Shown: positions 1 through 51,128 of the stretch, in pieces
Layout of the letters: the number at the start of each line of letters is the position of its first letter
How positions within the stretch are numbered: position 1 is the first letter of the stretch
Source: Liquorilactobacillus hordei DSM 19519
GTDB taxonomy: Bacteria; Bacillota; Bacilli; Lactobacillales; Lactobacillaceae
DNA length: 64,000 nt
Assembly: GCF_019443985.1 (NCBI RefSeq)
Contig: NZ_CP049303.1
Location: forward strand, 1,612,001-1,676,000
Direction of reading: 5' to 3'
Notes under the pieces: generated by a model
Database searches by the model: none
Told to the model about the DNA's origin: nothing
The model's input: only the letters and a program-made list of their open reading frames with translations
Made by a program: the position numbers and the translations under genes

Positions 1-435
1 AACACTATCATCCCATGTCGTCTGTCGCATTCGACTAGCAAGCCCCGTATTTGTCAAAAAATCAACATCTCCTGCAAATGGTTCCTGACTAATTGCATTA
101 GACAAACGAACTTTTGCAGAACGCACATTAGTATTATTTCCTTTTTCTGTCTTCATATAACCAAAAAAGTCAATTTCAGGATAATCTTTTATGGATACAG
201 TTTTGCTAAATTGGATTACCTTTCTATTACCAGAACCCTCTACACTTAAATCTGTTTCTGGTTCCCCGAGTTGTTGCACAATATTATATCTAAGAGCTTG
301 ACGTGAAATATAAGTGTACTGATAACCAGTATCTCGCGTTATTTTTTTTAAAGAAGCTATATTTCCTAGACTTTCGCCATAATTAGCACTACTTGCTTCA
401 AAAATAATTGTTGCTGTTAGACCTTTACTTTTCAT
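1..435 (-). CDS. cas7: Type I-B CRISPR Cas7 (Cst2/DevR family), N-terminal part only
   Basis: The reading frame begins with ATG at 435 and stays open for 145 codons to the window edge, so the C-terminal part is missing. The N-terminus (MKSKGLTATIIFEASSANYG, then 'ITRDTGYQYTYISRQALRYN') matches the Cas7/Cst2/DevR backbone family of type I-B systems. Six or so copies of such a protein coat the crRNA in Cascade. The start overlaps the end of cas8 by 11 bases, indicating translational coupling in one operon with cas8 and cas6. Cas5, Cas3 and the adaptation genes would be expected further left, outside the window. Confidence 0.85.
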   Translation of the reverse strand, partial: MKSKGLTATIIFEASSANYGESLGNIASLKKITRDTGYQYTYISRQALRYNIVQQLGEPETDLSVEGSGNRKVIQFSKTVSIKDYPEIDFFGYMKTEKGNNTNVRSAKVRLSNAISQEPFAGDVDFLTNTGLASRMRQTTWDDSV

Positions 436-2149
436 CTACTTTCCCCTCTTTTTTTCCAGAAATCAAACCTGTTATGAATGCATAAACTAACTGCTTGAAT
501 TCTTCTTTATTTTCCATTTTTTGCATAAATTCATTAGGTATACTTTCCTGCTGTCTTAAGTAGCAACTTAACAATAGATTCATAGTTTTTTTCTGATTTT
601 GTATTTTCAATGCTTGCAAGAGTTGATAAATCAAAATTTTCTCCTTATCTGGATTTAACTTGTATTTTTGTGCAAACTTCTTACCATCACCATAAACTTT
701 CGACAATATTTTGATATCTAACTTCGTTACATCCATTTCGTTAAATAGTATTGTATTTAGTTCAACAATATCCAAAATTTGCATTGGTGTAATATAGACT
801 CCTCGTCTATTTAAGATTTTTAAAAACAATAACTTATTAACTAGGTTATTCATATTAGTTTGGTTCAAAATTCGCATAATAACCTCATCGAAAATCATGA
901 AAGATTCTACGCCCTGATATTCAAAAATAAATGCATTGTTAAGCACATCCAAAATAGTTATCTTTTCTTGTCCATCACTTCTTTGTTTTTCTGCTTTTCT
1001 TAAAACATTTGCAGCAACCTCAGAAATAATGTTGAAATGATACTGTTCATTTTTGCGATTAACTATTTGTACATTTACAAACATATTTTGTTTAGATTTA
1101 TTAAATTCTTTCTTAAACACCTCATAAAATCCATACCATGGTGAAACCTTATTTGCTCCCTCAAATGATTCAGTAAGAACTTCTAAAAAATTGTTATTTG
1201 CATTATACAAATTATTTAAATTATATCCTGTTTGATTTACAAAAAAACCATGGTTCCCCTTCAAATTGTATGTAAAACCAGCTGGAACTGCGGAATACAT
1301 TAGACGACAAATAGGACACAAAAATTGATCAGAATTAAACTTATAACCATTACTATTTCTTTTCCTATAATCATACCCCATCCCGTTTAAAAATGAGTAT
1401 CCTATTTTCTCATTTGATCTCATTTTTCTTCCACAAGTTGTACATTTAATTTTTGCTTTTTCATGATTCTCCGATAAAAAATCAATTACAGGCTGTACAA
1501 AATATTCTTGATAGTCTTGATAAAGATTAACAATTTTACTTTGATTATTTAGAAAGGAAATACCATTCCAACCCTTATTGATGTATCGATATCCCAAACT
1601 TTTAGCTAGAAAGTATCTCTTATTAGTATCATTAGCAAAATATTGGACAATTTTCTTTAATTCACCAAAAAGAACAGTAAGTTCTTTCTTTAGGTTAACG
1701 TTCTTATCTTGCCACTTGTTTTTGCTTAGTTTCTTGAATAAATTTGTCGCATTTTCTAGATATTCTTCAATTGGAATTTCTGAATGTGCAAGTGGTCGCA
1801 TTTGCTTATAGCTACTTGTTTTTATAAAATATCTGACATTATTATTAAACCATTTAACACATGCTTGATAGTCTTGAAAAGTATATTTGTCAAACCCCAA
1901 TTTTTCTATTGCAATAATTTTAGGTAACCAACTAATTATTTTGTAATAATGTGTATATTGTCCATACGTATTAATAAAATATTGAAAGAAACTATTATTA
2001 ATCGTTTTGAATACCGTTGTTTTTACAATTAATTGATCATCGTTAATCTCATAATCTTCTACATCCAAAATTCTTGTTAAACCAATTATTCCAGCGTTTT
2101 CCAGCCAACTATCCATGTAAAAATTAATTGTTTTGGGTAAAACTGCCAT
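425..2149 (-). CDS. cas8b1: Type I-B CRISPR Cas8b1/Cst1, CXXC-CXXC large subunit
   Basis: This is a large Cascade subunit of about 574 residues. It carries two zinc-knuckle-like pairs, CTTC near residue 237 and CPIC near residue 277, which mark the Cst1 'CXXC-CXXC' family. In the complex the large subunit is expected to recognise the PAM and recruit Cas3. The frame opens at 2185 with TTG inside the end of cas6. I prefer the ATG at 2149 because an AAAGGAG site lies 11 bases before it and no site precedes the TTG. It sits between cas6 and cas7. Overall sequence is divergent, as usual for Cas8. Family assignment rests on the cysteine pairs and the position. Confidence 0.8.
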   Translation of the reverse strand: MAVLPKTINFYMDSWLENAGIIGLTRILDVEDYEINDDQLIVKTTVFKTINNSFFQYFINTYGQYTHYYKIISWLPKIIAIEKLGFDKYTFQDYQACVKWFNNNVRYFIKTSSYKQMRPLAHSEIPIEEYLENATNLFKKLSKNKWQDKNVNLKKELTVLFGELKKIVQYFANDTNKRYFLAKSLGYRYINKGWNGISFLNNQSKIVNLYQDYQEYFVQPVIDFLSENHEKAKIKCTTCGRKMRSNEKIGYSFLNGMGYDYRKRNSNGYKFNSDQFLCPICRLMYSAVPAGFTYNLKGNHGFFVNQTGYNLNNLYNANNNFLEVLTESFEGANKVSPWYGFYEVFKKEFNKSKQNMFVNVQIVNRKNEQYHFNIISEVAANVLRKAEKQRSDGQEKITILDVLNNAFIFEYQGVESFMIFDEVIMRILNQTNMNNLVNKLLFLKILNRRGVYITPMQILDIVELNTILFNEMDVTKLDIKILSKVYGDGKKFAQKYKLNPDKEKILIYQLLQALKIQNQKKTMNLLLSCYLRQQESIPNEFMQKMENKEEFKQLVYAFITGLISGKKEGKVDEK

Positions 2150-2174
2150 ATCATTAAATACTCCTTTCTCTTCA

Positions 2175-2924
2175 TCAATTAGCAATCATCCCAAAACCAG
2201 ATCCGCACTTAACACCTAGTCCTATTTGATTTATTAGATTTAGTAATACAGGATTTCCCTTAAGCACAAACGATCCTTTAGTAGCCTCAACAAATAAACC
2301 AAAATTTCGGGAAACTACTTTCTTAACTTTAATTGGCTGAAATTCTAATGTATCAACCATTTGTAAAAATTCAGCACTATACTCTTCTTGTAAACGACTT
2401 TTCATATTTATTCGTAACGTTTCATTAAAAAGTTTCGCGTTATTTTCACTATAAGATAAAAATATTTTTTGATCTTGGCGAACAACAATAGGTGATAATG
2501 TTCTGAAAATAACCATATCAGCTACAATAAGCGTCTCCCTAACCAATTCAACTTTTCCAAATTTTACAGTATTTTCCCTATCAAATCGCAAATTGTTTTG
2601 TTGCTGCAACCATATGAAGGAATTATAGAAATAAAGTGCTCTTGCACCATCATCAATACTAAAATTCAGTACGCATATTTTGCTTGATCCTAATTCAATG
2701 TATTCCTTTTTGAAAAGTACATTATCTTTAAAATAAATGCTAAAGGTAAAGTTTTTGGCTGTGTTTTTATTGTAAAGTTCTTCAAAAAGTTTTACATTCA
2801 CATTTGACAATCCTAGTTTAATTAATGAGAGAATTCCAGGAGCGTAATCCATTGCAATTGTTGGATGCTCACTTTCTGAATTAAATTTCAATTCTATACT
2901 TAATCTCAAACATTTCGTCCCCAT
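2175..2924 (-). CDS. cas6: CRISPR endoribonuclease Cas6
   Basis: This 249-residue RAMP-type protein ends in the glycine-rich loop 'GLGVKCGSGFGMI', characteristic of Cas6. Cas6 cleaves pre-crRNA within each repeat and stays on the 3' handle. It is the first gene of the cas operon: a -35/-10 pair lies about 65-90 bases upstream and cas8 follows directly. The only histidine is near residue 20, so the catalytic histidine cannot be placed with certainty. The start is ATG at 2924 with only a weak GTGGT site; a downstream TTG is possible. Confidence 0.82.
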   Translation of the reverse strand: MGTKCLRLSIELKFNSESEHPTIAMDYAPGILSLIKLGLSNVNVKLFEELYNKNTAKNFTFSIYFKDNVLFKKEYIELGSSKICVLNFSIDDGARALYFYNSFIWLQQQNNLRFDRENTVKFGKVELVRETLIVADMVIFRTLSPIVVRQDQKIFLSYSENNAKLFNETLRINMKSRLQEEYSAEFLQMVDTLEFQPIKVKKVVSRNFGLFVEATKGSFVLKGNPVLLNLINQIGLGVKCGSGFGMIAN

Positions 2925-3879: not shown

Positions 3880-4857
3880 TTAATCAACAATTGACTTTGT
3901 ATCTTCTCTTATAACCTTGGTTTTTTCATTAACTGTCTTATTCTTCCAATTAACGGCCAAGACAGAACCTGATATATTATGCCAGATACTAAAGACAGTA
4001 GAAGGAATTGCTGCAGCTGGAACAAAATACTTCATGGCTAATGTTGCTCCCAAACTTGAATCTTGCATCCCAACTTCAAAAGTAATTGCTTTTCTCTGCG
4101 GTGTCCTTAATCTGATTAGTTTAGAGAAGACATATCCAAGTCCATAACCTGACAAATTATGCAACATTACAACTGGAATAACAAGTAATGTTTGTGTCGT
4201 CATTAAATCAGCATGATTAGCAGAAATTACTGCTCCAATTATCAAAAGAATTGCTAATTGTGATACTAATGGCAAAAACCTTGTTACCCATTCAATCCTA
4301 TTCTTAAATAAATGATGTACCAATAAACCTAACAAAATTGGAACTAAAACAATTTTTACTGTACTTAAAAATAATGAAAATGTTGGAATATCAACGTATT
4401 TTCCCGCAAAAAGTAATAACAAACCGGGAAGTGCGATTGGTGCAAGTAACGTGGATAAGGTTTCAATTGACACATCAAGAGCGACATCTCCACCAGCAAG
4501 ATATGCCATTACACTTGACGATGTTCCACTTGGACATGAACCAACTAAAATCACACCAGCTGCAGTAGCACCTTTTAATTGAAAAATAAGACATAAAATC
4601 CAAGCAATTGTTGGCATAATTAAATAATGTGCAAAAGTTCCTGCAATAACGGGGAAAGGTTTCTTGGCAATCCTTTCAAAATCTTGTAATTTCAAGGTTA
4701 GCCCCATTCCAAAAAAAATTATTCCCAACAAATATGAGACATTTGGAACTACCCATTCGCTCGTTTTTGGCAAAAAATAATTAAAAACTACCCAAAAAAT
4801 AATTGCCGCTGTAAAGTATTTACCTACCAATTTACTTATCTTTTCGACTTTATTCAT
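3880..4857 (-). CDS. Bile acid:sodium symporter (BASS) family transporter
   Basis: A 325-residue membrane protein with about nine to ten hydrophobic segments. Family signatures include 'GMGLTLKLQDF' near the N-terminus, 'VGSCPSGTSSSVMAYLAGGDVALDVSIET' (the sodium-site crossover region) and 'FEVGMQDSSLGATLA' in the second half. BASS proteins import organic anions with Na+; bacterial members carry bile acids, keto acids or ketopantoate. The ATG at 4857 is chosen because AGGAGG lies nine bases before it. Its 330-base leader contains a Val/Ile/Leu-rich peptide and a terminator, which suggests that the substrate is linked to branched-chain amino acids or their 2-keto acids. That inference comes from regulation, not from the protein. 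Confidence 0.85.
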   Translation of the reverse strand: MNKVEKISKLVGKYFTAAIIFWVVFNYFLPKTSEWVVPNVSYLLGIIFFGMGLTLKLQDFERIAKKPFPVIAGTFAHYLIMPTIAWILCLIFQLKGATAAGVILVGSCPSGTSSSVMAYLAGGDVALDVSIETLSTLLAPIALPGLLLLFAGKYVDIPTFSLFLSTVKIVLVPILLGLLVHHLFKNRIEWVTRFLPLVSQLAILLIIGAVISANHADLMTTQTLLVIPVVMLHNLSGYGLGYVFSKLIRLRTPQRKAITFEVGMQDSSLGATLAMKYFVPAAAIPSTVFSIWHNISGSVLAVNWKNKTVNEKTKVIREDTKSIVD

Positions 4858-4949
4858 ATTCAAAAACCTCCTAATTTATTTAAATGCTTTCCTTCTCTCT
4901 TTGCAGGCATGATTAAAATATATAAATTTTTAATTTTCCTCATTCGTGC

Positions 4950-4990
4950 AAATAAAAAACCACCATGCTTTTTAACTCGCACGGTGGTTT
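4950..4990 (-). terminator. Attenuator terminator upstream of the BASS transporter
   Basis: On the minus strand AAACCACCGTGC pairs with GCATGGTGGTTT around a short loop, followed by a TTTTTTATTT run. It lies 16 bases after the stop codon of the leader peptide and about 90 bases before the BASS start codon. A competing pairing is visible: TGGTTT at 5013-5018 (leader Trp-Phe codons) can pair with AAACCA in the terminator's 5' arm (4985-4990). Confidence 0.8.
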
Positions 4991-5006
4991 ACTGATCTTA
5001 GAAATC

Positions 5007-5111
5007 TTAGCCAAACCAAAACTTTCTAGTCATAAGATCACGCGTACGCCTGATAATAATAACTAGAATAATGACAACAACATTTACATTTTGATTATTC
5101 GTGTAAGACAT
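5007..5111 (-). CDS. Branched-chain-rich leader peptide (transcription attenuator)
   Basis: A 34-codon frame, ATG at 5111 and TAA at 5007-5009, with an AGAGGAAA ribosome binding site at good spacing. Residues 9-20 read VNVVVIILVIII, eleven Val/Ile/Leu in twelve, followed by a basic RRTRD segment and a FWFG end. A consensus-like promoter precedes it and a strong terminator hairpin follows 16 bases after its stop. This is the architecture of ilv-type attenuators, in which ribosome stalling at scarce Val/Ile/Leu-tRNA prevents terminator formation. The hydrophobic core is too short for a normal membrane helix, which argues against a small membrane protein. The downstream gene is a BASS-family transporter rather than a biosynthetic gene. 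Confidence 0.75.
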   Translation of the reverse strand: MSYTNNQNVNVVVIILVIIIRRTRDLMTRKFWFG

Positions 5112-5197
5112 AAGATTTCCTCTTTCTAAAATTAACATATAATAAAATGATTAAAAAAAATTATTTTTGACATCAAAAATTAATTATCGATATCCCT

Positions 5198-5226
5198 ATA
5201 CTAAATCTCACTAACAATACAGTCAA
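5198..5226 (-). promoter_or_regulatory. Promoter of the leader peptide-BASS transcript
   Basis: On the minus strand TTGACT (5221-5226) and TAGTAT (5198-5203) are separated by 17 bases. Transcription would start near 5190, giving about 80 bases before the leader peptide and about 330 bases before the transporter gene. Confidence 0.6.
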
Positions 5227-5291
5227 GATTTATTTTAAAAAAGCATTAAATTTTTTTACAGTCTTTTCTCATTGTTTTTTGCATAACTTAT

Positions 5292-5327
5292 AAAAAAGGC
5301 CAAATCAAATTTTTTATGATCTAGCCT
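5292..5327 (-). terminator. Terminator after the DUF1516 gene
   Basis: On the minus strand AGGCTAGATCA pairs with TGATTTGGCCT (with G-U pairs), followed by TTTTTTAT. The hairpin core resembles the dispersed 'AGGTCAAA...' repeat seen at several other places in this window. Confidence 0.6.
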
Positions 5328-5348
5328 CTTCTATATATTTACTTTTAA

Positions 5349-5693
5349 TTAAAATGGTCGACCTCCAGCTAAAATAAAGCCTAATAAGCCAACAAGTATA
5401 GTTGTCACTAGTAACAAAGCTTTGGTCCTGCTCCTCCAATTATGTCCTTGACTAAAATATATCTCACAAAAACCAATTAATCCTATTGCTAACAATATCT
5501 TAACCACTGCCAAAACTGGAGATGCTTCCCAAGCATAACCGAGAAGCATTATACCACTGACAAGTGCAACCACGTAACAAATTCTCGCAATCATTTTTGC
5601 TGCTACACTTACATCTTTTTTACTGAAAACTACTGAAAAAACAACAATCAGCAACACAATCCATGTAACTAAGTGCATCCATAGCCAAATCAT
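5349..5693 (-). CDS. DUF1516 (YisL) family membrane protein
   Basis: 114 residues almost entirely made of four hydrophobic helices (about residues 5-23, 33-52, 58-78 and 90-110). Length and pattern fit the YisL/UPF0344 family of Firmicutes, whose function is unknown. A GGAAGTGAG site lies before the ATG. It is transcribed alone, between the BASS leader and the OppA-like gene, with its own terminator. Confidence 0.7.
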   Translation of the reverse strand: MIWLWMHLVTWIVLLIVVFSVVFSKKDVSVAAKMIARICYVVALVSGIMLLGYAWEASPVLAVVKILLAIGLIGFCEIYFSQGHNWRSRTKALLLVTTILVGLLGFILAGGRPF

Positions 5694-7883: not shown

Positions 7884-8150
7884 ATAAAAAAAACCCTTGA
7901 AAATATTATTTTCAAGGACGAATTATCTTCGCGGTACCACCTAGATTCACATCTTAACTTGCACTAAGATGCCTCAAGAGATATTCATTCAGAACGAATA
8001 CCTGGATTTTTAATGGAATCCATCCAATATTACTTTACATAAATTGCTCAGCAATATATTACTCCAAGACCATTTTCTTGATATTCATAACACCTGTTTT
8101 CAGCATATACAAGTTCTCTTTAGATAATTCTATCAATACTCATCTCATCA
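7884..8150 (-). promoter_or_regulatory. T-box riboswitch, probable methionine specifier
   Basis: The T-box core AGGTGGTACCGCG is at 7930-7942. It is followed by a ten-base-pair terminator (7895-7904 with 7908-7917) and a T-run. A stem I-like region lies upstream with 'GGTG' near 8090 and the 3' motif 'GAAA-NNN-...CTTGGAG'. Aligning that motif to the known glyQS arrangement puts ATG (8071-8073) at the specifier position, so uncharged tRNA-Met would antiterminate osmC-oppA. An offset of one base would read AAT (Asn). The element is certain, the specifier less so. Confidence 0.88.
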
Positions 8151-8177
8151 TTGTAATTACAAATTGTAAGTATGTTA

Positions 8178-50737: not shown

Positions 50738-51128
50738 ATGTAGTCCTCTATAAGCCACGTTCCGTACGTCATTCAACACAGGATGTTGAAATCGGTGGTA
50801 ATCATCTATCTCCAGATAGTCTTTTAACTATCTGCCCCCATGATTTGTTCATTTCCGTCATGAAGCGCCCCTACCAAAGTTTGGGTTACCTGCTCGTGGG
50901 GTTTACCGCGTTCCATCAATACCGTTTCCAATATTGCTTCGTCACTGTGGCACTTTCAAGACTACTCGGACATAGCACTAAACCTTAGTCCTTTTATCTG
51001 CCGTTACCCATAAGAGTACCTTGCCTTATTTTTTCAGCAAGCACGATCACTACAAGCATCTCAGCCTGTGCAAGCTTGGACTTTCCTCAGCCTACTTAAA
51101 GTAGACCGCGATTACCAGAGAACTACAC
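50738..51128 (-). ncRNA. rnpB: RNase P RNA, type B
   Basis: The minus strand carries RNase P landmarks: 'GAGGAAAGTCCAAGCTTGC' near the 5' end, 'ACAGTGACGAAG', 'GGAACGCGGTAAACCCC' and the 3' 'GGAACGTGGCTTATAGAGGAC'. The ends pair as helix P1 (GTAGTTCTCT at 51117-51126 with AGAGGACTAC at 50740-50749). About 390 nucleotides, in the low-GC Gram-positive type B form. It processes the 5' ends of tRNAs. It lies between the YpsC-like gene and gpsB. Confidence 0.95.

Follow-up and report, generated by a model that had tools for sequence, protein, structure and literature searches.

We report on a locus on the minus strand of a 64,000-nucleotide stretch of the Liquorilactobacillus hordei DSM 19519 genome (contig NZ_CP049303.1, positions 1,612,001 to 1,676,000; hereafter the window), where a short leader ORF rich in branched-chain codons and an intrinsic terminator precede a gene for a BASS-family transporter. 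A promoter, a 34-codon peptide with an I/L/V run, a terminator and a BASS gene had been proposed in an earlier note on this DNA, and all of them are found on the minus strand where that note had placed them. The features, in window coordinates, are:

5198 to 5226, minus strand: promoter, with the -35 box TTGACT at 5226-5221, a 17-nt spacer and the -10 box TAGTAT at 5203-5198
5164 to 5179, minus strand: inverted repeat TTTTTGATGTCAAAAA, approximately 12-27 nt past the expected transcription start
5007 to 5111, minus strand: leader peptide ORF of 34 codons, ATG at 5111 and TAA at 5009-5007, product MSYTNNQNVNVVVIILVIIIRRTRDLMTRKFWFG
5052 to 5087, minus strand: control codons 9-20 (V N V V V I I L V I I I), VNVVVIILVIII
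5025 to 5067, minus strand: predicted protector hairpin UUCUAGUUA...UGACUAGAA, from the fold with a ribosome at codon 11
5043 to 5048, minus strand: predicted antiterminator helix B, 5' strand CGUACG, partner 4983-4978
5034 to 5040, minus strand: predicted antiterminator helix A, 5' strand, partner 4999-4993
4993 to 4999, minus strand: predicted antiterminator helix A, 3' strand
4978 to 4983, minus strand: predicted antiterminator helix B, 3' strand CGUGCG, which overlaps the 5' arm of the terminator
4957 to 4990, minus strand: intrinsic terminator AAACCACCGUGC / GCAUGGUGGUUU with U tail, assigned on sequence, folding and conservation
3880 to 4857, minus strand: BASS-family transporter gene, 325 aa, of an ilvD-linked subfamily, assigned on Pfam SBF, phmmer and context

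The leader ORF is preceded by a GAGG ribosome-binding site and its control codons comprise five Val, five Ile and one Leu codon. Sixteen bases separate the leader stop from the terminator, which has a 12-bp stem, a 10-nt loop and a U tail, and the BASS start codon (ATG at 4857) has AGGAGG just 5' of it.

Of the short ORFs (15-60 aa, all six frames) in the window, 998 in total, one has a run with at least 11 of 12 residues being I, L or V, i.e. the leader ORF itself, and 20 Markov-resampled windows gave three such ORFs altogether. The predicted fold of the leader RNA was better than that of all 200 shuffles (z -4.0). Taken alone, the promoter pattern was not significant (12 promoter-like sites vs 10.1 ± 2.9 in shuffles); the hairpin loop limit in the promoter scan was 8 and the 10-nt loop of the terminator was too long to be listed, and terminators were read directly from the sequences. 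The DNA from promoter to terminator is 84-86% identical in the three relatives having the same layout, where the leader peptide and both promoter hexamers are kept, and the L. cacaonum leader is 76% identical to that of the window over 259 nt, with both hexamers nearly kept. The inverted repeat TTTTTGATGTCAAAAA is unchanged in the window genome and these three relatives and carries one change in L. cacaonum; possibly it is an operator or a 5' hairpin. As support for the locus, we consider that this conservation weighs more than the promoter pattern.

No Rfam family was detected at the leader, where nine sub-threshold matches were taken as chance, and the T-box model RF00230 gave no match at 4800-5350 with E ≤ 10. 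Likewise, Rfam searches of six other loci (L097, L098, L112, L114, L126 and L107) and of seven further, mainly solo-BASS, loci predicted nothing at the BASS or ilv leader. Elsewhere in the window, a T-box leader (7911-8160, minus strand, 104.2 bits) is located 5' of OsmC-like and oppA-like genes, 2.8 kb from the BASS leader, and a T-box is also present in UCMA15818 (L107). The window also carries a class B RNase P RNA gene (50746-51123, minus strand) and two ORFs at 425-2924 (minus strand) that may encode CRISPR-associated proteins, with a Cas6-like glycine-rich end.

Within the genus, a near-complete BASS gene was found in 12 of 14 genomes; the two remaining genomes gave a 45-residue match and no match, respectively. 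The leader lies directly 5' of BASS in four of the 12 (the window genome, UCMA15818, L. mali ATCC 27304 and L. mali KCTC 3596) and ilvD occupies that place in the remaining eight. In six of these eight a kindred leader precedes ilvB in the order ilvB-(ilvN)-ilvC-ilvA-ABC-(RidA)-ilvD-BASS, where ilvN and RidA were each uncalled as ORF in one of the six clusters; the leader peptides end in ..IIMRxCDLMPGL in five of them and in ..INMRECDLMPRVI in the sixth. For one cluster, the NCBIfam models for ilvB, ilvC, ilvA, ilvD and Rid scored above their cut-offs; the ilvN label is based on similarity and position, without an NCBIfam match at 1e-10. In the seventh, L. cacaonum, leader-ilvD-BASS occupies the SUF-OsmC-OppA-DUF1516 site that leader-BASS occupies in the window (sufT, with 93.2 bits, scores below its cut-off of 143.4 bits), and L. 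sicerae, the eighth, has the ilvB cluster and its leader on the opposite strand. A tree of 18 BASS proteins places the four leader-BASS sequences in one group (96/93) with L. cacaonum adjoining (100/100). The proposal that an ilv-type attenuator precedes BASS hence gains from three sides, i.e. a peptide kept in all three relatives, the same leader before ilvD-BASS in L. cacaonum and kindred leaders before ilvB...ilvD-BASS, and the conservation suggested as a check in the earlier note, a Val/Ile/Leu-rich leader and terminator before orthologous BASS genes, is indeed seen in relatives.

Beyond the genus we compared the context of 80 named loci. On the strand that carries BASS, an ilvD gene ending no more than 2.5 kb upstream was present at 37 of the 43 Lactobacillaceae loci, one of two in Enterococcus, one of 10 in Streptococcaceae and none of 25 in Actinobacteria; in Streptococcus and Actinobacteria BASS is mostly found away from ilvD. 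Leaders rich in V, I and L (seven or more of nine residues) were also found before ilvD or ilvB in some other genera, including Lentilactobacillus, Limosilactobacillus, Agrilactobacillus, Ligilactobacillus and one Enterococcus. By the same criterion no such leader was found for the Companilactobacillus ilvB or ilvD units, the Loigolactobacillus units and most Secundilactobacillus units, and many Lactobacillaceae with ilvD-BASS gave none. In Enterococcus italicus (L187, upstream of 10001) a promoter-like site, the peptide MNQSIALVIIIKSRT and a terminator are followed by BASS, with no ilvD within 2.5 kb and ilvD approximately 13.5 kb off. Since this leader and the other Enterococcus leader, which precedes ilvD-BASS and has the similar end VVILIIKSRT, end alike, E. 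italicus may have a second, independent leader-BASS unit.

A gene for an MHS-family metabolite:H+ symporter was also seen with an Ile-rich leader peptide and a terminator-like hairpin at eight of 12 loci (L226-L232 and L234), and it is divergent from ilvB wherever both were seen; it may represent a second transporter under branched-chain attenuation. The copy in the window genome (L236, C3:24500-25765) is without such a leader and the DNA upstream of it resembles, by eye, a transposase fragment.

Two facts were unknown to the earlier note: BASS belongs to the ilv operon, and the window genome has lost the ilv genes. Specifically, the window genome gave no match to ilvD or ilvC and none to ilvB at E ≤ 1e-60. 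Likewise, no ilvD, ilvC or close ilvB was found in L. mali ATCC 27304 and UCMA15818, both of which have kept the leader and BASS. The window genome retains the branched-chain aminotransferase BcaT (ilvE_II, 353.7 bits, cut-off 250). In L. cacaonum ilvD is present, and ilvC and a close ilvB were not found; its leader-ilvD-BASS arrangement may represent a half-way stage of decay or reliance on dihydroxy acids taken up from outside. In L. mali KCTC 3596 a full ilv cluster, preceded by a separate leader and without BASS, lies on another contig than leader-BASS, and leader-BASS therefore also occurs where the pathway has been kept. The two L. mali records (L134 and L133) differ in that one has a full ilv cluster and the other neither ilvD nor ilvC, and contamination is possible; the record with the full cluster is a 120-contig assembly at 4%.

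Because ilvD-BASS adjacency is the rule outside the leader-BASS group, loss of ilvD from between the leader and BASS is the simplest reading. A search for a scar, in which the leader-BASS spacers were aligned with both ends of the L. cacaonum ilvD, gave no convincing alignment: for the window, L132, L133 and L134 the score was reached by 282, 243, 6 and 9 of 300 shuffles on the 5' side and by 10, 38, 26 and 101 of 300 on the 3' side. We read the locus, from its sequence and that of its relatives, as an ilv-operon attenuator that appears to have been left in control of the former last gene of that operon, the transporter. Among five of these BASS genes dN/dS varies between 0.045 and 0.121 over 10 pairs, where the distances to L. 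cacaonum are saturated, and the BASS gene is under purifying selection.

To predict the behaviour of the leader, transcripts ending just past the terminator 5' arm were folded with the RNA under and behind the ribosome removed, for the leaders of the window, UCMA15818, both L. mali and L. cacaonum. With the A site at codons 12-16, the arm was predicted to be paired upstream with P 0.76-0.84 in all five, compared to 0.09-0.66 at codons 6-11 and 0.01-0.08 at the stop; a second and lower rise at codons 21-28 reached 0.49 in the window leader. The earlier note had asked for folding with a ribosome on the control codons, and in these truncated transcripts that is where upstream capture of the terminator arm is predicted to be best in five of five leaders. 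For the ilv-operon leaders L136-L139 the capture probability stayed at 1.00 until the control codons and was 0.06-0.16 with the ribosome at the stop; the corresponding values for L146 were 0.94-1.00 and 0.28. When the downstream codons were recoded synonymously the real value was reached by 12 of 300 recodings for the window leader, 10 of 300 for L132 and 13 of 300 for L133, by 3 of 300 and 0 of 300 for the ilv leaders L137 and L146, and by 44 of 300 for the L. cacaonum leader L135, where this control is weak.

Covariation within the antiterminator comprises two pairs changed on both sides, among only four distinct sequences. At one position of helix B, L. mali and L. cacaonum have G-C where the window genome and UCMA15818 have A-U, and with G-C the covarying column loses a terminator pair (T-A to C-A). 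In the alignment, where the L. cacaonum row was shifted by one in helix A, 94.1% of the cells are paired vs 24-58% for slid partners; the shuffle control is weak, with 45 of 500 shuffles reaching 94.1% and, for two measures, 227 and 387 of 500 reaching the real value.

Our data suggest that the leader is very likely an ilv-type attenuator in which transcription is coupled to translation. A shortage of charged tRNA-Val or tRNA-Ile would stall the ribosome at codons 12-18, helices A and B would capture the terminator 5' arm and BASS would be transcribed. With the ribosome upstream of the control codons the protector hairpin would hold the antiterminator 5' strand, and when both tRNAs are plentiful the ribosome would reach the stop and the terminator would form.

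Membership of BASS in the ilv regulon appears well supported by its gene context. The keto-acid link put forward in the earlier note is strengthened by this ilv context, the substrate and the direction of transport being what we infer. It is probable that the inherited ilv attenuator now drives a BASS protein that imports a precursor of Val and Ile. Most likely, the imported compounds would be the IlvD products 2-oxoisovalerate and 2-oxo-3-methylvalerate, which the retained BcaT would turn into Val and Ile, and import would then salvage what the lost enzymes made. Import of branched-chain 2-oxo acids is the best explanation because the IlvD products represent the last common step before BcaT, and it is favoured since BcaT is retained and BASS is placed under a starvation switch after the pathway was lost.

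That BASS instead exports surplus 2-oxo acids or 2-acetolactate of the ilv pathway, with leader-BASS as a leftover, appears unlikely to us. Its ancestral site at the end of a biosynthetic cluster makes overflow conceivable, and the direction of transport is not readable from sequence; against this, BASS is kept under purifying selection in the three genomes where ilvD, ilvC and a close ilvB were not found, and the predicted attenuator would switch it on in starvation, when exporting makes no sense.

The protein itself bears on a second alternative, i.e. a PanS-like transporter of ketopantoate or pantoate that belongs to the ilv regulon since ketopantoate derives from 2-oxoisovalerate. The BASS protein belongs to the family according to Pfam SBF (131.6 bits, cut-off 24.3) and is below the cut-off of TIGR00841 (250.1 vs 326.3). 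PanS (NF047939) is its best NCBIfam model, with 264.9 bits under an equivalog cut-off of 400 bits, and phmmer matched ASBT_NM (3zux) with E 4e-79. We take Ser128 and Thr132 of ASBT_NM to be among its sodium ligands. In the residue alignment, from which eight of the 80 loci are absent since no BASS ORF was kept, the position of Ser128 is Asp in 73 of 73 sequences, that of Thr132 is Glu in 50 and Gly in 23, Thr112 and Ser114 are kept, and that of Asn115 is Ser, Asn or Gly. Moreover, the position of Asn265 is Asp (Asp266) in all 73. ASBT_NM is the nearest solved relative; according to PMC10645422 it binds pantoate, the change of Asn265 to Ala abolishes binding, and the sodium ligands include Ser114 and Asn115. 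Because the positions of Asn265, Ser128 and Thr132 are altered, both the ligand and the cation site are likely to differ from those of ASBT_NM; as a guess, BASS might be coupled to protons rather than sodium. The score under the PanS cut-off, Asp in place of the pantoate-contacting Asn265 and the result for panC, which was not found in 14 of 14 genus genomes with a control that was positive in 9 of 14 known genomes, weaken the ketopantoate variant of the earlier note, and we regard a PanS-like function as improbable in spite of the best model and the pantoate-binding relative.

When whole leaders were folded, the terminator stayed at every ribosome position listed for the window leader and L132-L133; two ilv leaders, L138 and L139, do switch in their best whole-leader fold with a ribosome at codons 24-26. 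Since the whole-leader folds keep the terminator, BASS antitermination must be kinetic if it works. These folds would also suit a passive relic, with BASS expressed from elsewhere and the terminator merely lowering expression; this is quite improbable, considering that the promoter, the codons and the antiterminator pairing are kept at a BASS dS of 0.81-0.85 between the window genome and its three near relatives. Finally, import of the pantoate-like 2,3-dihydroxy acids, the IlvD substrates, is very improbable: leader-ilvD-BASS without ilvC or a close ilvB in L. cacaonum looks as if the IlvD substrate came from outside, but L. cacaonum may be an intermediate of decay and such acids would be useless in the window genome, UCMA15818 and L. 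mali ATCC 27304, which are all without ilvD.

Returning to import of branched-chain 2-oxo acids, a wider proposal is one that we regard as possible yet short of probable. The distinct BASS subfamily with Asp at the Asn265 and Ser128 positions would be a dedicated ilv-regulon importer of Lactobacillales for branched-chain 2-oxo acids or dihydroxy precursors, perhaps proton-coupled, and, once the pathway decays, the leader and importer would remain together as a minimal salvage operon.

The E. coli ilvL and ivbL leaders are ilv leader-peptide attenuators, and a uORF at Corynebacterium ilvBNC is reportedly a leader. The window leader resembles ilv attenuators in its short peptide with branched-chain codons, the terminator past the stop, the predicted alternative fold and its position before ilv genes in relatives; unlike them, it would control only a BASS transporter in four genomes. 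T-box leaders of Firmicutes amino-acid genes also sense tRNA charging, but none was reported at the BASS leader, where sensing would be via translation. For the Staphylococcus aureus ilv-leu leader, PMC5794164 reports an antiterminator that captures the U tail, whereas capture of the 5' arm is predicted here. PanS of Salmonella and ASBT_NM of Neisseria are of the same family and length, and differ in that the window BASS scores below the PanS cut-off, has changes at Asn265, Ser128 and Thr132, and is ilvD-linked in Lactobacillaceae. The plant proteins BASS5 and BASS2 are, as described in PMC10645422, 2-oxo acid and pyruvate transporters of the same family, with oxo-acid substrates as proposed for the window BASS; their residues matching Asn265 and Thr112 are Ser and Gln, compared to Asp and Thr in the window BASS. 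In the literature searched, which covered few subscription papers, no description of a BASS gene under an ilv leader was found.

With both its ancestral neighbours and its switch belonging to Val/Ile synthesis, an orphan transporter family gains a strong functional lead. The locus looks like a biosynthetic operon decaying to a sensor and a transporter, a simple route from maker to scavenger in which the starvation sensor is kept. Branched-chain 2-oxo acids matter for food flavour, and the carriers by which lactic acid bacteria take them up would become directly testable.
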